This document shows positions 7,445 to 59,232 of a stretch of DNA of 64,000 nt, in pieces. The position numbers were made by a program, and so were the translations under genes. The notes beneath the pieces were generated by a model. The model was not told the origin of the DNA and ran no database searches. It worked only from the letters and a program-made list of their open reading frames with translations. Every line of letters starts with the position of its first letter. Within the stretch, counting starts at the first letter, position 1. The DNA is from Myroides phaeus (GTDB lineage Bacteria > Bacteroidota > Bacteroidia > Flavobacteriales > Flavobacteriaceae): positions 1 to 64,000 of the forward strand of contig NZ_FNDQ01000010.1 of assembly GCF_900099675.1 (NCBI RefSeq), given 5' to 3'.

Positions 7445-7633
7445 AGTAATCGAGTATAGAAAGATCGTTAGATAATTTTAATCACACGTTTTAAAAAGTT
7501 ATCGCGGCAATAGTATAGTTTAGAATATTAGTTTTTTTGTATAATTATACTTTTGTAATAGTAATTGTTTTTGATAAAAACGTTTAAGTACCACGACAAT
7601 GTTGCTTATATAAAATACTAAAAATAAAAATAC

Positions 7634-10892: not shown

Positions 10893-11045
10893 ATGTGTAC
10901 GTTAATTTTGGACAGTCATCCCGTATTATTTGACCACCGTGGAGACTACTCTCGGTTGGTATCACTTAATGTGATTCGAAATACAGGACAAATGTATAAT
11001 CAAAACCAATTGAAAGCAAATGTTTTGTGGGATATTTTTTATTGA
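10893..11045 (+). CDS. Possible small protein, 50 aa
   Basis: ATG at 10893 opens 50 codons starting MCTLILDSHPVLFDHRGDYS and ending VLWDIFY. AGAGGA lies four bases before the start, a spacing that would suit ribosome binding although such sites are uncommon here. The peptide has a balanced composition and no low complexity. It is divergent from the gene at 10835 and unlike anything I know. It could also be the 5' remnant of a larger gene. Confidence 0.28.
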   Translation: MCTLILDSHPVLFDHRGDYSRLVSLNVIRNTGQMYNQNQLKANVLWDIFY

Positions 11046-19033: not shown

Positions 19034-19609
19034 ATGCAAAGTAGTAGAAGAGTTCAAGCACAAGAGTCGTTGGGAATTGCTAATGTGCAACAAGTTAGAA
19101 AGGATCAGACGGCAATAGAACAGGAAATCAAGAGGAAGGAAGCTAAGATTAATAAAAAGATAGCGATTGAACAATCTCAATCTTATAGACAGTTGAAAAG
19201 AATAGCAACTATAATGGATAAGTATTTTTTAGATCCGTTATTAGGTTTTATTCCAGGGATAGGAGATATAGCAACTCCAATTATATCGGCACCTTTTGTT
19301 TATGTAAGTTTATTTAAAGTAAAATCTATATCTCTTACATTGGCTGTTATTTATAATTCGTTAAGAGATATGCTTTTAGGGATGATACCATTCTTTATAG
19401 GCGATCTTATTGATGTATTCCATAGATGCCATTTGCAGAATTTAAGATTAATTGTTGGCTTTGTAGAAGATGATAAAGAAATTATTAAAGAAGTAAATCA
19501 AAAGGCAATTAAAAGTGCTATAGGTATTGTCATTTTGATTGGATTAATTTATTTAATGTTTAAAATGGTAGCTTCTATTGTAAGCTGGATTGGAGGATTA
19601 TTTGGATAA
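19034..19609 (+). CDS. DUF4112-like membrane protein
   Basis: This 191-residue protein has a polar, helical N-terminus (1-60, with KRKEAKINKKIAIEQSQSYR) followed by a DUF4112-type core. That core is MDKYFLDPLLGFIPGIGDIA, an APFVYVSLFKVKSI helix, and LRDMLLGMIPFFIGDLIDVF, then HRCHLQNLRLI. This duplicated P-G/F-IGD pattern defines DUF4112. A final membrane segment (about 162-187, AIGIVILIGLIYLMFKMVASI) is extra compared with the minimal family. It starts one base after the 722-aa gene, so the two products probably work together at the membrane. The biochemical function of DUF4112 is not known to me. Confidence 0.8.
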   Translation: MQSSRRVQAQESLGIANVQQVRKDQTAIEQEIKRKEAKINKKIAIEQSQSYRQLKRIATIMDKYFLDPLLGFIPGIGDIATPIISAPFVYVSLFKVKSISLTLAVIYNSLRDMLLGMIPFFIGDLIDVFHRCHLQNLRLIVGFVEDDKEIIKEVNQKAIKSAIGIVILIGLIYLMFKMVASIVSWIGGLFG

Positions 19610-19828: not shown

Positions 19829-19836
19829 TACATTTG
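19829..19836 (+). promoter_or_regulatory. ilv operon -7 promoter element
   Basis: TACATTTG, an exact TAnnTTTG, lies 22 bp before the first leader peptide start. I see no second such element before leader 2, leader 3 or ilvE, so this seems to be the only promoter feeding all three attenuators. Confidence 0.65.
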
Positions 19837-19858
19837 TCTCACACAAGAAAACAAGAAA

Positions 19859-19921
19859 ATGAAAAATACAGTTATTATCCCAGTTATTATTATTGCAGTT
19901 GTGATTATCACAAGTGTTTAG
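19859..19921 (+). CDS. ilv leader peptide 1
   Basis: The 20-residue peptide MKNTVIIPVIIIAVVIITSV has seven Ile and five Val and no Leu. Like classical attenuator peptides, it would stall ribosomes when charged tRNA-Ile or tRNA-Val is short. The start lies about 16 nt after the expected transcription start. The last base of its stop codon begins the antiterminator strand GGGATGCT (19921-19928), which can pair with AGCCTCCC in the 5' arm of the following terminator. Confidence 0.85.
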   Translation: MKNTVIIPVIIIAVVIITSV

Positions 19922-19951
19922 GGATGCTATAACTTTATTTTAAAATAATAT

Positions 19952-19984
19952 AAAGCCTCCCGAGTTATCAGGAGGCTTTTTTTA
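19952..19984 (+). terminator. ilv attenuator terminator 1
   Basis: The stem AAAGCCTCC (19952-19960)/GGAGGCTTT (19971-19979) is followed by Ts. The competing helix GGGATGCT (19921-19928) with AGCCTCCC (19954-19961) has seven of eight pairs and would disrupt it. Confidence 0.9.
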
Positions 19985-20023
19985 TTTCAACTATTTTCTA
20001 TCAAAAACATAAAATAACAAATC

Positions 20024-20077
20024 ATGAACACATATATCAACTCTATTATTGTCATTATTATTGTGAACTCGTATTGA
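20024..20077 (+). CDS. ilv leader peptide 2
   Basis: The 17-residue peptide MNTYINSIIVIIIVNSY has six Ile and two Val. It is nearly identical to leader 3 and unlike leader 1 outside the Ile/Val bias. The stop codon TGA lies inside ATTGATGAGGTAGGTT (20073-20088), the proposed antiterminator strand. A ribosome that finishes the peptide would therefore cover that strand and permit termination. Confidence 0.85.
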   Translation: MNTYINSIIVIIIVNSY

Positions 20078-20104
20078 TGAGGTAGGTTGCTATTGTATAA
20101 ACAG

Positions 20105-20138
20105 AAAGCCCTTCTCATTAATTGTGAAGGGCTTTTTT
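20105..20138 (+). terminator. ilv attenuator terminator 2
   Basis: The stem AAAGCCCTTC (20105-20114)/GAAGGGCTTT (20126-20135) is followed by a T run. The 5' arm and loop (20107-20122) can instead pair with 20073-20088 in a helix of at least nine consecutive pairs, including one G-U. Confidence 0.9.
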
Positions 20139-20279
20139 ATTCTATATTTTCCGCTTCTAAGATAGATATAGAATATCAGACGATAGAGGTGTCTTGTAGT
20201 AAAAACCTCAATTTTAATGATTAAAAATATAAGAAGATTTAAAAATAAAACACAAATTAAGAACTATAAAACACAAATT

Positions 20280-20333
20280 ATGAACACATTTATCAACTCT
20301 ATTATTGTCATTATTATCGTGAACTCGCATTGA
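20280..20333 (+). CDS. ilv leader peptide 3
   Basis: The 17-residue peptide MNTFINSIIVIIIVNSH differs from leader 2 at two residues. With its flanks it forms a roughly 130-bp imperfect direct repeat of unit 2, offset by 256 bp. The stop codon sits inside the antiterminator strand 20329-20344. This is the last leader before ilvE, whose start follows 95 bp later. Confidence 0.85.
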   Translation: MNTFINSIIVIIIVNSH

Positions 20334-20360
20334 TGAGGTAGGTTGTTATTGTCTAAACTG

Positions 20361-20396
20361 AAAGCCCTTCTCATCAATTGCGAAGGGCTTTTTTTA
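20361..20396 (+). terminator. ilv attenuator terminator 3
   Basis: The stem AAAGCCCTTC/GAAGGGCTTT is followed by T7. Bases 20363-20378 pair alternatively with 20329-20344, starting with ATTGATGAG to CTCATCAAT, nine perfect pairs. Position 20375 is C here and U in unit 2, so a G-C pair is replaced by a G-U pair and the helix is kept. Confidence 0.9.
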
Positions 20397-20427
20397 TTCA
20401 TTGAATTAGTATTAAAAAAAATAAATT

Positions 20428-21312
20428 ATGTATTACAATCAAGAAACAGTAGTATTTGTAGACGGGAAATTCGTCAAAGCAACAGAATCAACAACAGATT
20501 TATATGGACAAACTCTTCACTATGGCTATGGAGTTTTTGAGGGAATTCGATCTTATAAAACAGATAAAGGGACACGTGTTTTCAAAGCAAAAGAGCACTA
20601 TGATCGCCTGCGAAAATCGTGTGAGTTAGTTAATATTCCGTTTAATTATACCACAGAGGAATTAGAGGAATTGACTTATGAATTGTTAGAAAAAAATAAT
20701 CTAACAGATGCGTATATCCGTCCTTTAGTGTACTGTGATCCTAATATGAGCTTGACTAAGCCTAACAATGTGTCTTTGATGATCTGTGCTTGGGAATGGG
20801 GTGCTTATTTAGGTGATCAGCAGTTGAGATTACACCTTTCTTCTTATTGTCGCCCTCATCCACGTTCAATTAAGATTGAAGCAAAAGTTTGTGGTCATTA
20901 CGTGAATTCGGTGTTGGCAACAAGTGAAGCAAAAGAGAAAGGATATGATGAGGCCTTATTATTAGATAGTGATGGATATTTGGCAGAAGGACCAGGAGCC
21001 AATTTATTCTTTGAAAAAGACGGTGTATTATTTACCCCACAAACAGGTAATATTTTGCCTGGTATCACACGAGAAACAGTGTTGGAATTAGCTAAGGAAC
21101 TTGGTGTTGAAGTAAAAGTTGGCTTATTCACTTTAGAAGATTTATTGCAAGCAGACAAAGCTTTTTACTGTGGTACAGCTGCTGAAGTTATTCCAATTGA
21201 GTCGCTTGATGAACACGTATTTCCTTTGAAATGGAATGATTCATTAGGTAAGAAACTACAAGAAAGATATGGACAGTTAGTTCGAGAACAAAAACTACAA
21301 AAAGCAGCTTAA
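20428..21312 (+). CDS. ilvE: Branched-chain amino acid aminotransferase IlvE
   Basis: This 294-residue class IV PLP transaminase performs the last step of isoleucine, valine and leucine synthesis (2-oxo acid plus glutamate). It shows the family N-terminus ([20 protein letters not shown]), the PLP lysine in [20 protein letters not shown], the phosphate-binding [11 protein letters not shown] (about 190), and the late [12 protein letters not shown]. It is the first structural gene of the operon, placed after three attenuators. ilvD starts one base after its stop codon. Confidence 0.95.
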
Positions 21313-21313
21313 G

Positions 21314-22999
21314 ATGTTGGAATTAAATAAATACAGTAAGACTGTTACCCAAGATAGCACGCAACCAGCAGCACAGGCAATGTTACACGGAATTGGGTTA
21401 ACAACAGAAGATTTGGCTAAAGCCCAAGTAGGAATTGTTAGTATGGGGTACGAGGGTAACACTTGTAATATGCATTTAAATGGATTAGCAAAAGAAGTGA
21501 AAACAGGTGTACAACAGGTTGATATGGTAGGTTTGATATTCAATACTATAGGAGTGAGTGATGGAATATCAAATGGAACAGAAGGAATGAAGTACTCCTT
21601 AGTATCCCGTGATATCATTGCAGATTCTATTGAAACTGTTGTCTGTGCACAATGGTATGATGGAGTAATTGCATTACCTGGTTGCGATAAAAATATGCCT
21701 GGTTCTATCATTGCAATGGGGAGGTTAAACCGTCCGTCTCTTATGGTTTATGGCGGAACAATTCACTCTGGAAAGTACAAAGGAGAATCGCTAAACATTG
21801 TTTCTGCATTTGAGGCATTAGGTAAAAAGTTTAGCAATGAAATATCAGACGAGGATTTCAAGGGGGTTATTAAACACGCTTGTCCAGGAGCAGGTGCTTG
21901 TGGAGGAATGTACACTGCAAATACTATGGCATCAGCCATTGAAGCATTAGGGATGAGTTTGCCGTATAGTTCTTCTAATCCAGCTTTGAGTAGAGAAAAG
22001 CAATTAGAATGTTTAGAAGCAGGCAAGGCAGTAAGAAAGTTGTTGGAGTTAGATATAAAACCTCGTGATATTATGACTTTTAAAGCATTTGAGAATGCAA
22101 TGACGATGGTCAGTGTATTAGGAGGGTCAACGAATGCTATTCTACATTTAATTGCAATGGCTTATTCTGTTGATATAACTCTAACACTTGCCGATTTTCA
22201 GCGTATTAGCGATTGCGTTCCTGTGTTAGCAGATTTAAAACCAAGTGGTAAGTATCTGATGGAGGATTTACATAAAGCAGGAGGAGTGCCAGCTGTGATG
22301 AAGTATTTGTTAGACTGCGGTTTATTACATGGCGATTGTTTAACTGTTACAGGAAAAACAGTGGCCGAAAATCTGCATAATTTACCTGGATTAGCAGAAG
22401 GGCAACAAGTGATTAAAACATTAGCGGAACCAGTAAAAGCAAATGGACATCTACAAGTACTTTATGGCAATTTGGCAGAGAAGGGGAGTGTAGCTAAGAT
22501 TAGTGGAAAAGAAGGTAGTTATTTCAAAGGAACAGCAAGAGTATTTGACGATGAGTATGCCGTTATGACGAGTGTCCGTCAAGGAGAAGTAAAAGAAGGA
22601 GAAGTAATTGTTATTCGCTATTGTGGACCAAAAGGAGGACCAGGAATGCCTGAAATGTTAAAACCCACATCAGCCATTATGGGAGCTGGTTTAGGAAAGA
22701 GTGTGGCCTTGATTACAGACGGTCGCTTTTCAGGAGGAACACATGGTTTTGTAGTAGGACATATTACTCCGGAGGCTTATGAAGGAGGGGCAATAGCTTT
22801 AGTTGAAAATGGAGATGTTATTACGATTGATGCAGAGAACAATACACTGACATTAGGTGTAAGTGAAGAAGTGTTAGCAAAGCGAAAAGCAAAGTGGGCT
22901 AAGCCTAAATTAAAACATACAAAAGGTGTACTATTTAAGTATGCACAACAAGTGTCAAATGCCTCCAGAGGTTGCGTAACTGATGCTATAAACGAATAA
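21314..22999 (+). CDS. ilvD: Dihydroxy-acid dehydratase IlvD
   Basis: This enzyme converts dihydroxyvalerate and dihydroxy-methylvalerate to the 2-oxo acids with an Fe-S cluster. At 561 residues it has the usual length. Cluster ligands are expected in [10 protein letters not shown] (about 50), [12 protein letters not shown] (about 120) and [17 protein letters not shown] (about 192). [10 protein letters not shown] and the C-terminal [20 protein letters not shown] are the other signatures. It is second in the operon, with one base separating it from ilvE and a three-base gap before ilvB. Confidence 0.97.
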
Positions 23000-23002
23000 G
23001 AA

Positions 23003-24697
23003 ATGGAACAAACAAAACTAACAGGAGCACAGGCGGTAATACAATCGCTTTTACAGGAAGAGGTAGATACCATTTTCGGTTATCCCGGGGGAGCTATTAT
23101 GCCTATTTACGATGCATTGTATGATTTTACAGAAAGCTTAAAACATATATTGGTTAGGCACGAACAAGGGGCAATTCACGCAGCACAAGGATATGCGCGT
23201 ACATCAGGTAAGACAGGAGTCGTTTTTGCTACTTCAGGACCAGGAGCGACTAATTTAATTACAGGATTGGCAGATGCGCATATTGACTCAACTCCTTTAG
23301 TCTGCATTACAGGGCAAGTTGCCTCTCCTTTATTAGGAACAGACGCATTTCAGGAAACAGATATTATTGGTATTTCATTGCCAGTTACAAAGTGGAATTA
23401 CCAAATAACTAAAGCAGAGGAAATAACTAAGGTATTAGCTAAAGCATTTTACATTGCTCAAAGTGGTAGACCAGGTCCAGTGTTGATTGATATTACTAAA
23501 GATGCACAGTTTAGTTTAGTTGATTTCATATATGAAAAGTGTACTTCTGTCAGAAGTTATACTCCTTGTCCTAAAGTAGATGAGACAACGGTTAATGAAG
23601 CGGCTAAGTTGATTAACCAAGCACGAAAGCCTTTGTTGCTTGTAGGGCAAGGGGTGATATTATCGGAAGCAGAAGAAGCTTTATTAAGTTTTGTAGAGAA
23701 AACAGGAATACCAGTTGCCTGTACTTTACTTGGCTTAGGAGCTCTACCTACTACACATTCTAATTACGTGGGGTTGTTAGGAATGCATGGAGATTATGCT
23801 CCTAATATTAAGACAAATGAATGTGATGTGTTAATTGCGGTAGGGATGCGTTTTGACGATAGAGTAACAGGAGATGTAAGTCGATATGCTAAACAAGCAA
23901 AGGTAGTACACGTGGATATTGACGCAGCTGAACTTAATAAGATTATTAAAGCAGATGTTGGTGTTCATGGGGATGCTAAAGAAGTGTTAGGGCAGCTATT
24001 GCCATTGGTTGATAAAAATAAGCATACAAACTGGTTATCTGAATTTGCGCAAGCAAAGAAAGTAGAAGTAGCAGGGTTAGCAAAGCATGTAAAGGCAACC
24101 GAAACAAGAGAAGTGAAGATGGAAGAGGTGGTTAAACTCTTGTCAGAAATGACTGATGGAAAAGCGATTGTGGTAACTGATGTAGGTCAGCACCAAATGA
24201 TAGCTGCTCGTCACTATCAATTTGCAAATACCCGAAGCAACGTAACTTCAGGTGGATTAGGAACAATGGGATTTGCACTACCAGCGGCTATTGGAGCAAA
24301 GTTAGGAGAACAGTCAAAAACAGTAATTGCAGTAATTGGCGATGGTGGTTTTCAAATGACGTTACAAGAGTTAGGTACTATTATGCAAAGCGAGGTTGAT
24401 GTTAAGATAGTTATTCTAAATAATCATTATTTAGGTATGGTACGTCAATGGCAACAGTTATTTTTTGAAAAGCGCTATTCTTTTACTGAAATGGTAAGTC
24501 CTGATTTTGTTGCCTTAGCTAAAGCTTACCATATTGAAGGGGAAAGTGTGGCTACAAGAGAAGCTATTAAAGAAGCCTTGTCTAAAATGTTATCTCATCA
24601 AGGTTCTTATTTGTTAGAAATAGTAGTAGAGAAAGAAGATAATGTATTTCCAATGATTCCAACAGGAGCATCTGTGTCAGAAGTAAGATTGAGTTAA
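23003..24697 (+). CDS. ilvB: Acetolactate synthase, catalytic subunit IlvB
   Basis: The catalytic subunit of acetohydroxyacid synthase condenses pyruvate with pyruvate or 2-oxobutyrate using thiamine diphosphate, FAD and Mg. At 564 residues it has the normal size. The TPP-activating Glu is in LVRHEQGAIHAAQGYARTSG, the FAD domain in the middle contains MHGDYAPNIKTNECDVLIAV, and the TPP/Mg motif is GDGGFQMTLQELGTI followed by NNHYLGMVRQWQ. It lies between ilvD and ilvN, its regulatory subunit. Confidence 0.97.
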   Translation: MEQTKLTGAQAVIQSLLQEEVDTIFGYPGGAIMPIYDALYDFTESLKHILVRHEQGAIHAAQGYARTSGKTGVVFATSGPGATNLITGLADAHIDSTPLVCITGQVASPLLGTDAFQETDIIGISLPVTKWNYQITKAEEITKVLAKAFYIAQSGRPGPVLIDITKDAQFSLVDFIYEKCTSVRSYTPCPKVDETTVNEAAKLINQARKPLLLVGQGVILSEAEEALLSFVEKTGIPVACTLLGLGALPTTHSNYVGLLGMHGDYAPNIKTNECDVLIAVGMRFDDRVTGDVSRYAKQAKVVHVDIDAAELNKIIKADVGVHGDAKEVLGQLLPLVDKNKHTNWLSEFAQAKKVEVAGLAKHVKATETREVKMEEVVKLLSEMTDGKAIVVTDVGQHQMIAARHYQFANTRSNVTSGGLGTMGFALPAAIGAKLGEQSKTVIAVIGDGGFQMTLQELGTIMQSEVDVKIVILNNHYLGMVRQWQQLFFEKRYSFTEMVSPDFVALAKAYHIEGESVATREAIKEALSKMLSHQGSYLLEIVVEKEDNVFPMIPTGASVSEVRLS

Positions 24698-24711
24698 CAA
24701 AAAGAGAAAAT

Positions 24712-25227
24712 ATGAAACAGGAATTTACCATGTCGATTTTTACTGAAAATAGTGTAGGTATGCTGAGTAGAATTACAAATATATTCACTCGTAGACATTT
24801 GAATATCAATAGCATTACTGCTTCAGAATCAGAAGTGAAAAATGTGTTTAGATATACCATAGTACTAAAAACTACTCGTGAACAGATTGATAAAGTAGTA
24901 GGGCAAGTAGAGAAACTAATTGACGTACTAAAAGCCTTTGTTTATGAAAACAAAGACATCGTGCATCAAGAGTTGGCACTTTATAAAATCAAGACTGATC
25001 AATTAACGCATAGTTTAGTAGAACAAGTCATCCGTGAAAATCACGCAAGAATACTGTCCGTAGATAAGGAGTTTATGGTTATCGAAAAAACAGGATATGT
25101 TGAAGAAACACAAGCTTTATTTGAGCGATTATCTCCTTTTGGTCTTTTAGAATTTACAAGATCTGGGAGGGTAGCAGTTACCAAACCGATGTGTGCAATT
25201 AGCACATTTTTAAAAGAATTAAATTAA
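24712..25227 (+). CDS. ilvN: Acetolactate synthase, regulatory subunit IlvN/IlvH
   Basis: This 171-residue small subunit activates IlvB and gives feedback inhibition by valine-type amino acids. The ACT domain is at the N-terminus (FTMSIFTENSVGMLSRITNI, then INSITASESE), followed by the C-terminal regulatory domain (HARILSVDKEFMVIEKTGYV). The spacing to ilvB is 14 bp. Its length matches long-form IlvN/IlvH proteins. Confidence 0.93.
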   Translation: MKQEFTMSIFTENSVGMLSRITNIFTRRHLNINSITASESEVKNVFRYTIVLKTTREQIDKVVGQVEKLIDVLKAFVYENKDIVHQELALYKIKTDQLTHSLVEQVIRENHARILSVDKEFMVIEKTGYVEETQALFERLSPFGLLEFTRSGRVAVTKPMCAISTFLKELN

Positions 25228-25241
25228 AAAATATAGAAAGC

Positions 25242-26288
25242 ATGGCACAAATTAATTTTGGAGGAGTAGTAGAAAATGTGGTAATGCGTGAAGAGTTTAC
25301 GCTTACGCGAGCAAAAGAGGTTTTAAAAAACGAAAAGATTGCTGTAATCGGTTACGGAGTACAAGGACCTGGACAAGCGTTAAACTTGAGAGACAATGGG
25401 TTTGATGTAATTGTAGGACAACGCAAAGGAACCCCTACTTGGGATAAAGCACTGTCTGATGGATGGAAAGAAGGAGAGAGTTTATTTGACTTAGAAACAG
25501 CCTGTGAAAAAGGTACTGTACTGATGAATTTATTATCTGATGCAGGTCAAATTCACACTTGGGAGATGGTGAAAAAACACTTAACACCAGGAAAAGCATT
25601 GTATTTTTCTCATGGTTTTGGAATTGCTTTTAGTGATAAAACAGGAATTGTTCCTCCTACTGATGTAGATGTGTTTTTAGTAGCACCAAAAGGATCTGGA
25701 ACATCACTGAGAAGTTTGTTTTTAGAGGGATGTGGACTTAATTCAAGTTTTGCCGTAGAACAAGATGCAACGGGCAATGCCAGAGAAAGAGCCTTAGCTA
25801 TTGGTATTGCTATTGGTTCAGGTTATTTATTTGAGACTACTTTTCAAAAAGAGGCTTATAGCGATTTAACAGGTGAGAGAGGTGTATTAATGGGAGCTAT
25901 TGCGGGTATTTTTGAAGCTCAATATAATGTATTAAGACAACGAGGGCATTCGCCAAGTGAGGCATTTAACGAAACAGTAGAAGAGTTAACACAAAGCTTA
26001 ATGCCGTTAATAGCAGATAAAGGTATGGACTGGATGTATGCTAATTGTTCAACTACAGCACAACGTGGAGCTTTAGATTGGAAAGATAAATTCAGAGATG
26101 CTACTACTCCTGTATTAAATGATTTATATGATAGTGTAGCATCAGGTAAGGAAGCAGAGATTGTTATTGAAGCAAATAGTAAACCAGATTACAGAGTAAA
26201 ATTAGAAGTAGAATTAGAAACTTTACGTCAAAGTGAGTTATGGCAAACAGGCGTAGAAGTTCGAAAATTAAGACCATCAAAAGCATGA
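25242..26288 (+). CDS. ilvC: Ketol-acid reductoisomerase IlvC
   Basis: IlvC isomerises and reduces acetolactate or acetohydroxybutyrate with NADPH and Mg. The 348-residue length suits the short class with a few extra terminal residues. The nucleotide motif is IAVIGYGVQGPGQALNLRDN (about 32-51). The catalytic C-terminal part has YSDLTGERGVLMGAIAGIFE (metal-binding Asp and Glu) and FNETVEELTQ. The stop codon overlaps the start of ilvA by four bases (ATGA), so translation is probably coupled. Confidence 0.94.
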   Translation: MAQINFGGVVENVVMREEFTLTRAKEVLKNEKIAVIGYGVQGPGQALNLRDNGFDVIVGQRKGTPTWDKALSDGWKEGESLFDLETACEKGTVLMNLLSDAGQIHTWEMVKKHLTPGKALYFSHGFGIAFSDKTGIVPPTDVDVFLVAPKGSGTSLRSLFLEGCGLNSSFAVEQDATGNARERALAIGIAIGSGYLFETTFQKEAYSDLTGERGVLMGAIAGIFEAQYNVLRQRGHSPSEAFNETVEELTQSLMPLIADKGMDWMYANCSTTAQRGALDWKDKFRDATTPVLNDLYDSVASGKEAEIVIEANSKPDYRVKLEVELETLRQSELWQTGVEVRKLRPSKA

Positions 26289-27529
26289 GTTTATTAACTA
26301 AAGTTTATCAAGCCCAAAAAAATATATTAGGCGTAGCGGTACATACACCTCTTGTCAAGAATGAAAATCTAAGTGTTGCCTTTGAAGCTAATGTTTATTT
26401 AAAAAGAGAAGATTTACAACCCGTTCGTTCTTATAAGTTAAGAGGAGCATTTAATAAAATAGTATCCTTGTCTGCCGCAGAGCAGGCAAGGGGGGTAGTC
26501 TGTGCCAGTGCTGGAAACCACGCGCAAGGTGTAGCTTATGCTTGTCATCAGTTGAATATTCAAGCAACAATCTATATGCCAGTAACGACACCACAGCAAA
26601 AAGTAAAACAAGTCAAATTATTTGGTAAAGATAAAGTTGAGGTGATTTTAAGTGGAGATACATTTGACGACGCTTTTTATCAAGCAAGTGAGCATTGTAC
26701 GGCCAATCAAGCTGTGTTTATTCATCCCTTTGACGATGAATATGTAATAGCAGGACAAGGTACAGTCGGCTTAGAAATGTTACAAGATACAACTCTACCG
26801 ATAGACTATGTGTTTGTACCTATTGGAGGAGGAGGCTTAGCATCAGGTATTTGTACCGTATTTGAAGAGTTAAGTCCTACTACAAAAATTATAGGTGTAG
26901 AGCCAATGGGCGCAACATCAATGAAAACTTCTATTGAGAATAAGGAAAATACAACATTGCTATCAATAGATAAATTTGTAGATGGGGCAGCAGTTAAACG
27001 CGTGGGGGATTTACCTTTTGAAATCTGTAGCAACAAATTGTCTGATGTACTTGCCATTCCAGAAGGAAAAGTGTGTACTGAAATATTGCGATTATATAAT
27101 GAAGATGCTCTTGTAGTAGAGCCTGCAGGTGCGTTGTCTATTGCAGCTTTGGAACAATATAAAGAAGTGATTAAAGGTAAAAATGTAGTCTGTGTAGTAA
27201 GCGGAAGTAATAACGACATCACCCGTACAGAAGAAATTAAAGAAAGATCCTTATTGTATGAGGGATTAAAACATTATTTCATCATAAATTTCCCACAACG
27301 TCCAGGGGCTTTAAAGAAATTTGTAAACTGTGTTTTAGGAGAAAACGACGATATTACTTATTTTCAATTTACGAAGAAAAATAGCAGAGAAAGTGGTCCT
27401 GCTGTGGTTGGCGTAGAGCTTAAAAATTCGGAAGATTTTTTAATGTTAGAACAGCAATTAAAAACCCATAATTTTAGCTACAGATATCTGAATGGCAATG
27501 AAGATTTGTTTACACAGTTAATAGGGTAG
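26285..27529 (+). CDS. ilvA: Biosynthetic threonine dehydratase IlvA
   Basis: IlvA deaminates threonine to 2-oxobutyrate, the entry to isoleucine. I use the Met at 26285 overlapping the ilvC stop; a longer frame from 26240 would lie inside ilvC. The 414-residue protein has the PLP lysine in RSYKLRGAFNKI, SAGNHAQGVAYA, the glycine loop PIGGGGLASGICTVFEE, and SGSNNDITR. The C-terminal ACT-like regulatory domain (about 335-414: FIINFPQRPGALKKFVNCVL) allows feedback by isoleucine. This is a one-ACT form, shorter than E. coli IlvA. Its place in the ilv operon links it to the thr operon 32 kb away. Confidence 0.95.
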   Translation: MSLLTKVYQAQKNILGVAVHTPLVKNENLSVAFEANVYLKREDLQPVRSYKLRGAFNKIVSLSAAEQARGVVCASAGNHAQGVAYACHQLNIQATIYMPVTTPQQKVKQVKLFGKDKVEVILSGDTFDDAFYQASEHCTANQAVFIHPFDDEYVIAGQGTVGLEMLQDTTLPIDYVFVPIGGGGLASGICTVFEELSPTTKIIGVEPMGATSMKTSIENKENTTLLSIDKFVDGAAVKRVGDLPFEICSNKLSDVLAIPEGKVCTEILRLYNEDALVVEPAGALSIAALEQYKEVIKGKNVVCVVSGSNNDITRTEEIKERSLLYEGLKHYFIINFPQRPGALKKFVNCVLGENDDITYFQFTKKNSRESGPAVVGVELKNSEDFLMLEQQLKTHNFSYRYLNGNEDLFTQLIG

Positions 27530-59001: not shown

Positions 59002-59127
59002 ATGTTAAAGCAAGGCAATACATATAATTCAATTTCTACACCAACAATCTTCGTTGGCGGCATTGCTATTGTATCTACATCATTAACGACATCTACATCG
59101 TCGTCATCGTCAACTTCTACCCCGTAA
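59002..59127 (+). CDS. thr leader peptide, Thr/Ser/Ile-rich
   Basis: This 41-residue peptide begins MLKQGNTYNSISTPTIFVGG and ends with a run of Thr and Ser. It has nine Thr, eleven Ser and four Ile, with Ser and Thr filling nearly all of the last 17 codons. I chose 59002 because the promoter box is just upstream; a frame from 58900 is open but would start before it. The ORF resembles the function, not the sequence, of E. coli thrL: ribosomes should slow when charged tRNA-Thr (and perhaps tRNA-Ser or -Ile) is scarce. Unlike the ilv leaders, no clear intrinsic terminator lies between it and thrA. Confidence 0.75.
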   Translation: MLKQGNTYNSISTPTIFVGGIAIVSTSLTTSTSSSSSTSTP

Positions 59128-59232
59128 AGGGGTATCAATTAACATATCGCCCATTTGGTGGTTGTTTGCATATTTGTAAGCAGCCGGCATATCTTTTATC
59201 CTAATTCAACACAACACAAATTAATATTTATT

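Follow-up and report, generated by a model that had tools for sequence, protein, structure and literature searches.

In textbook transcription attenuation, one leader peptide controls one terminator. The classical leader-peptide attenuators precede the ilvGMEDA, ilvBN and thr operons of Proteobacteria. Attenuators that read one signal in series are familiar from Bacillus subtilis, where thrZ has tandem T-boxes and the pyr operon has three PyrR attenuators; in these the sensor is an RNA that binds tRNA or protein. Described here is the leader region of the ilv operon of Myroides phaeus, which lies in a 64,000-nucleotide stretch of DNA (the window, on contig C47 of a 2.97 Mb genome in 58 contigs). 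This region is very probably a chain of three working ribosome-mediated transcription attenuators in series. It resembles the proteobacterial ilv and thr attenuators in having an open reading frame (ORF) with codons for the product amino acids and an antiterminator opposed to an intrinsic terminator, placed before a biosynthetic operon. It differs in that there are three units, the antiterminators start from the leader stop codon, the phylum is another one, and no leader hairpin was noticed in units 2 and 3, although no systematic search for one was made. With the thrZ and pyr systems it has in common three same-signal attenuators in series, but the sensing step would be ribosome stalling.

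Among Bacteroidota, strong clues have been presented for Flavobacterium psychrophilum that leader peptide attenuation acts upstream of amino-acid biosynthesis operons (PMC9723704). Single leader-peptide attenuation is thus a known mechanism that has been noted in this species, which belongs to the same family as M. phaeus and whose genome also carries a triple ilv array (locus L025). The main text of that paper has no word beginning with ilv, and its available portions do not mention a series arrangement. Leader-like short ORFs are described in 5′ untranslated regions of Bacteroides thetaiotaomicron (PMC7366714). A 2010 survey, in its available portion, lists such systems only from Proteobacteria and Actinobacteria, in addition to its own Firmicutes find and the atypical ermC leader (PMC2965389).

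Two described systems approach a serial arrangement. The Salmonella mgtCBR leader has tandem attenuators for two different signals, ATP and proline, which act additively, and the available text describes it as singular (PMC3641672). As in the window, several leader ORFs in one leader govern one operon; unlike mgtCBR, with its two units and two signals, the window has three units, all of them for the same amino acids, and every unit has an intrinsic terminator of its own. Judged by codon content, the window does not fit an mgtCBR-type array with distinct signals, as all three leaders are Ile/Val-rich. In several Gammaproteobacteria the rimP leader holds two terminators in tandem, and a potential antiterminator accompanies the upstream one (PMC2965389). 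The attenuator-like terminators in series are similar, but rimP is not an amino-acid operon and the available text names no amino-acid leader peptide for it. At the level of titles and opening lines of abstracts, with most subscription journals beyond reach, no serial same-signal leader-peptide attenuators were found described.

Three units before ilvE

The preceding gene ends at 19609 and ilvE starts at 20428. Three units fill the interval, each in the order leader ORF, post-leader segment, and hairpin with T tail. The features are as follows.

19829..19836, + strand: promoter-like −7 box TACATTTG (TAnnTTTG motif), 30 nt 5′ of the leader-1 start
19859..19921, + strand: leader ORF 1 (type 1), MKNTVIIPVIIIAVVIITSV; type-1 leaders are also found in 22 related loci
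19899..19913, + strand: folded hairpin within leader ORF 1 (UUGUGA UUA UCACAA), possibly a pause hairpin
19921..19961, + strand: antiterminator 1, 19921-19924 and 19926-19928 paired with 19958-19961 and 19954-19956
19952..19984, + strand: terminator 1 and T tail (hairpin 19952-19979, −15.4 kcal/mol)
20024..20077, + strand: leader ORF 2 (type 2), MNTYINSIIVIIIVNSY
20073..20122, + strand: antiterminator 2, 5′ strand from 20073 across the stop codon, its partner the terminator-2 5′ arm and loop to 20122
20105..20138, + strand: terminator 2 and T tail (hairpin 20105-20135, −16.5 kcal/mol)
20280..20333, + strand: leader ORF 3 (type 2, a copy of leader 2), MNTFINSIIVIIIVNSH
20329..20378, + strand: antiterminator 3, 20329-20338 paired with 20369-20378, inner helix 20341-20344 with 20363-20366
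20361..20396, + strand: terminator 3 and T tail (hairpin 20361-20391, −16.4 kcal/mol)
20428..21312, + strand: ilvE, branched-chain aminotransferase, first gene of the operon (NCBIfam TIGR01122 above cut-off)
21314..27529, + strand: ilvD, ilvB, ilvN, ilvC and ilvA, the remainder of the operon (NCBIfam ilvD, acolac_lg, acolac_sm, ilvC and THD1, each above cut-off)

The operon order is ilvE-ilvD-ilvB-ilvN-ilvC-ilvA, and its products synthesise Ile and Val. The initial annotation had proposed three tandem units before ilvE behind one promoter-like element, each with an intrinsic terminator and T run, and this arrangement was found. It had also called the leaders Ile/Val-only. They are indeed Ile/Val-rich, but "only" overstates the case: of the 20 residues of leader 1, 12 are Ile or Val, and leaders 2 and 3 each have 8 such residues among 17. 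Unit 1 is a type of its own: its leader contains a hairpin, and Val codons are more numerous. Units 2 and 3, duplicates of one another, form a direct repeat of 139 nt with 88% identity and a spacing of 256 nt. An in-frame ATG is present at 20217, upstream of leader ORF 3. The spacer between units 2 and 3 (20139-20279) is longer than in most relatives, and a 20 nt tandem repeat (20245-20264 and 20266-20285) begins in it, AAG in one copy corresponding to the leader-3 ATG in the other; this is perhaps the scar of a lost copy.

The array is not expected by chance. A detector was used that calls a leader with at least 6 of 10 residues Ile, Val or Leu if a T-tailed hairpin (−8 kcal/mol or lower) follows its stop codon at a distance of 5-60 nt. 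It reports three units in the leader region; among 400 dinucleotide shuffles of that region, 397 have no unit, three have one and none has two or more. The remainder of the 64 kb, searched on both strands in overlapping chunks (∼49 hairpin-plus-tail sites), gives four further matches. Three of these show no Ile/Val run. The fourth, at 7537-7590, is a TTG-start ORF with a VIVIV run, 48 nt 5′ of a T-tailed hairpin; it is similar in make-up to the ilv units and may be a chance occurrence or another leader. A stock terminator scan gave as its sole site terminator 1 read on the minus strand, and did not list the plus-strand terminators. That scan permits loops of 3-8 nt, and the plus-strand stems have an inner mismatch; the three plus-strand terminators therefore rest on the folding detector.

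Antiterminators and the proposed mechanism

In each unit of the window, a strand at the leader stop codon is complementary to the 5′ arm of the terminator, which provides a mutually exclusive antiterminator. These antiterminators are new relative to the initial annotation. Folded without the terminator 3′ arm, antiterminators 1, 2 and 3 give −9.5, −14.9 and −14.3 kcal/mol (z −1.2, −3.4 and −3.6), with duplex p values of 0.005, 0.01 and 0.005, respectively; the hairpin is long in units 2 and 3 and shorter in unit 1. With the stop codon's first base as reference, the onset of the 5′ strand is 2 nt downstream in unit 1 and 2 nt upstream in units 2 and 3. In the last Ile/Val run, the final codon's first base precedes this onset by 14 nt in unit 1 and by 10 nt in each of the other two units.

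The following mechanism is suggested by this geometry. RNA polymerase would pass all three terminators before reaching ilvE. In each unit a ribosome would translate the short ORF rich in Ile (and Val) codons. When charged tRNA is ample, the ribosome at the stop codon would mask the antiterminator strand, and the terminator would form. When the ribosome stalls on the upstream Ile/Val codons, the strand would be free to pair with the terminator 5′ arm, with read-through as the result. Assuming a footprint of ∼12 nt downstream, consistent with PMC4833913 as far as its available text goes, a ribosome at the Ile codons would leave most of the antiterminator strand uncovered. Because the units would sense the same signal in sequence, total read-through should be the product of the three fractions, and a tighter shut-off and a steeper response than with a single unit would be expected. 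Anatomy, complementarity and conservation form the observed part of this scheme, and stalling, termination and the response to Ile and Val are carried over from the classical mechanism.

A single upstream promoter is also consistent with the scheme. The TAnnTTTG motif is the promoter consensus of F. psychrophilum in the portion of the report available (PMC9723704), and transcription would start a few nucleotides downstream of the −7 box. Of 23 type-1 arrays, 19 have such a box 25-31 nt 5′ of leader 1, and three have one within the array. Since the boxes mostly precede leader 1 and seldom occur within arrays, their placement fits one transcript across all units. A second promoter inside the window array was looked for and rejected: there is no further TAnnTTTG box from leader 1 to ilvE, and a sigma-70 scan gave seven sites versus 8.3 ± 2.5 in shuffles, which is chance level.

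Occurrence in related genomes

The initial annotation had also suggested comparing the ilvE leader regions of relatives for their number of units. The best 80 of 177 relatives in a species collection, found by IlvE similarity, were combined with the window to give 81 loci. Raw detector counts were 17 loci with three units, 17 with two, 40 with one and seven with none. Matches without an Ile/Val run were removed by hand (the first matches of L026, L064, L067, L072, L077, L081, L082, L088 and L089, and the matches of L034 and L041); that of L086 was retained though doubtful. After curation 16 loci have three units, the window included, 10 have two, 46 have one and nine have none. The other 15 three-unit loci comprise four Flavobacterium (among them F. 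limnosediminis, F. sasangense and F. psychrophilum), four Aequorivita, two Bizionia, one each of Marixanthomonas, Oceanihabitans and Xanthomarina, Brumimicrobium oceani from a different family, and one metagenome-assembled genome (MAG) labelled only Bacteroidetes. Among the loci with a single unit are Chitinophaga, most Pedobacter and Cyclobacteriaceae. Serial arrays thus occur beyond this genome, which corrects the initial annotation; two- and three-unit arrays recur in Flavobacteriaceae. Together with the antiterminator of each unit, the conservation described below and the placement of the promoter-like boxes, the 15 further triple loci support the proposal of three attenuators in series.

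Within the genus the cassette is patchy, since an IlvE of this similarity (E ≤ 1e-60) is present in only five of 61 genomes, M. phaeus itself included. A search for plasmids using the leader region gave no match. The Brumimicrobium locus (L030) is a close ilvE relative in another family, possibly by transfer. Two further close ilvE relatives, L034 and L038, are on contigs labelled as Limnohabitans and Rhizobium MAGs, a likely case of mis-binning.

A survey of ilvD covered 199 Flavobacteriaceae genomes, 164 of which have a match; 80 of the 164 were analysed with a stricter detector. Two units were scored upstream of ilvD in 14 loci, one in 30 and none in 36. The stricter detector undercounts: G131 holds three units and was scored as two. 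In 13 of the 14 two-unit loci, CCTGTAT or CCTGTGT is found in the downstream terminator and is absent from the upstream one, the exception being G131. These ilvD arrays indicate that two-unit arrays extend beyond the ilvE type of the window.

Conservation of pairing and origin of the third unit

Antiterminator complementarity recurs across loci. In a set of 172 units, which is uncurated and contains some false ones, the segment running from slightly 5′ of the stop codon to the terminator was tested for complementarity to the terminator 5′ arm against 200 shuffles of its own sequence; p was ≤ 0.05 in 129 and ≤ 0.01 in 95. When the entire leader and post-leader were searched, 139 of 170 distinct units had their best complement to the terminator arm starting no more than 12 nt from the stop codon, compared with 42 of 170 shuffled ones. 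An earlier count of complements at the stop footprint, 118 of 118, was partly built in, as the searched segment started 9 nt 5′ of the stop codon. The pairing strands vary by family (GAGTGAG/CTCATTC, TGATACAG/CTGTATCA and GGAGGATAGGT/GCCTTCCTCC). Complementarity is thus retained without retention of sequence.

Pairing was also examined in alignments by type. The type-2 alignment holds 41 of the 44 units; the upstream one from L036 and the two from L035 were omitted. In the antiterminator 93.1% of cells are paired, versus 43-52% when slid by 1-3 columns; in the terminator 98.5% are paired and no shuffle equals this. The type-1 antiterminator has 92.5% of cells paired in 23 loci. In the leader-1 hairpin the inner five pairs are 91% kept over the 23 type-1 units, with both-side changes at two pairs. 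For type-1 antiterminator and leader hairpin taken together (23 units), 92.0% of cells are paired, and the covariation score is matched by nine of 500 shuffles.

Six ortholog pairs were compared for the identity of each element. It is 93% for the terminator in each of units 1, 2 and 3, 86-89% for the leaders, 80, 89 and 90% for the antiterminator strands and 82-85% for the loops, compared with 75% for the spacers. In all three units the leaders, antiterminator strands and terminators are conserved above the spacers, and by this measure the third unit is therefore not decaying in general. One unit in decay was seen: in L016, a MAG labelled Flavobacteria bacterium RIFCSPLOWO2, the third leader lacks a stop codon and the terminator is weaker.

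The IlvE tree gives the window a two-unit Weeksellaceae bacterium as its sister (support 100/95), and well-supported branches force at least six changes of the three-unit state. Units 2 and 3 of the window share 92% identity, neither exceeds 71% with any other unit, and the unit tree joins the two (99/87). Identity between units 2 and 3 within one genome is 77-97% in the other 15 three-unit loci. The third unit of the window looks like a separate lineage-specific duplication, or its likeness to unit 2 has been kept by gene conversion. The unit tree was rejected for dating the duplication, as it is poorly resolved (four of 38 branches well supported); only the pairing of units 2 and 3 was used.

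Other leaders in the same genome

Leaders for other amino acids were found in M. phaeus. A single his unit, with leader MFTNKLHHHHHLTCTHASR (L209), has five consecutive His codons and a terminator before a gene matching the HisG model. A single trp unit, with leader MNTQFLNTNWWWLTQSDKGFSWLCCVFK (L210), has three consecutive Trp codons and a terminator before a gene matching a chorismate-binding model. Two Met-rich leaders stand in series at L211:1130-1453 (genome G000, contig C13; partly also in L208), namely MNLRLTNMQAMMMMWRNPQGLLFA (L211:1130-1204) and MIFNTNTMMMAMMMMNMMMFTHSYCLKSPS (L211:1303-1395), each followed by a T-tailed terminator. The gene behind them scores above cut-off for the O-acetylhomoserine sulfhydrylase model (homocysteine synthase, methionine synthesis). 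These two may be a methionine leader-peptide attenuator pair. A match to the homocysteine-synthase gene is present in 45 of 60 genomes; of 30 loci analysed, five have at least one Met-rich unit and two have two, M. phaeus being counted in both.

Two further elements were observed in the window. A Thr/Ser-rich short ORF ending in SLTTSTSSSSSTSTP precedes thrA (59002-59128) with no T-tailed terminator detected after it, and is possibly another kind of leader control. A SAM-I/IV riboswitch scores above gathering at 10894-10989 on the minus strand.

Weighing the explanations

Several observations weigh against a chain of three attenuators. The TTG partner of the window's −7 box is 13 nt distant, which is poor spacing, and antiterminator 1 is weak in folding. 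In units 2 and 3, a ribosome halted at the final control codon would keep a few nucleotides of the antiterminator strand masked, and the last Val codon of leader 1 adjoins the stop codon, so stalling there should not help. In the type-2 antiterminator the covariation score is matched by 43 of 500 shuffles and is not clearly above chance, with two pairs changed on both sides versus 1.4 expected; at one of these both U-A cells are the window's own units, and at the other one of the three G-C cells is. The 36 ilvD loci with no detected unit also count here, although the detector is known to miss some. None of the nine His, Trp and Met leaders passed the near-stop complementarity test (p 0.12-0.99); their best complement starts 14-29 nt 5′ of the stop codon, and they are therefore not counted in support of antiterminators. 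Finally, the evidence for attenuation is drawn from sequence, and leader translation and transcript behaviour are predictions.

Other explanations have to be set beside these points. Perhaps only one or two units still regulate, the others being relics of duplication, constant weak terminators or inert. Units 2 and 3 are near copies, the number of units shifts often on the IlvE tree, and the third unit of L016 is failing; but in the window all three units retain leader, antiterminator and terminator, and in the six ortholog pairs unit 3 is no less conserved than units 1 and 2. This explanation is considered improbable. That the hairpins are ordinary terminators releasing short RNAs, with accidental ORFs, is much less credible still. 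Four more short DNA matches to terminator 1 exist in the genome, each at a hairpin with AAAGCCTC-type arms, and a leader-like ORF 5′ of a hairpin occurs once elsewhere in the window (7537), yet loci whose terminator sequences differ widely also have Ile/Val-rich ORFs and antiterminators at the stop codon, the leader codons are as well conserved as the pairing strands, and none of the 400 shuffles produced even two units.

Control by some other sensor, a T-box, riboswitch or protein, with the leaders merely coupling translation, has an equally slight chance of being right. The region has weak sub-threshold Rfam matches that could hint at such a sensor. On the plus strand, below the gathering score of 55, they include Thr_leader (RF00506; 31.6, 26.9 and 20 bits) and Phe_leader (RF01859; 33.1 bits), which rank among the best and are themselves leader-peptide attenuators. 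A T-box appears neither at gathering score nor among the 18 Rfam matches up to E 1. With no gathering-level match in the region, a T-box, riboswitch or known Rfam leader was rejected as the sensor, and three leader-peptide attenuators in series are the preferred explanation.

Significance

More broadly, though with little more than even confidence, serial same-signal leader-peptide attenuation may be a standing design of Flavobacteriaceae: a multiplicative gate of two or three units, its length tuned by duplication and loss, with a third unit that arose separately or was homogenised in the lineage of the window, and with an extension to Met leaders. Like sensors in series would raise the range of one switch to its square or cube. 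The arrays thus offer a natural test of what the stacking of regulators alters, be it dynamic range, steepness or noise, and related loci in which the same gene is preceded by one, two or three units form a ready comparative series. The arrays also reveal candidate leader-peptide attenuators widely in Bacteroidota.
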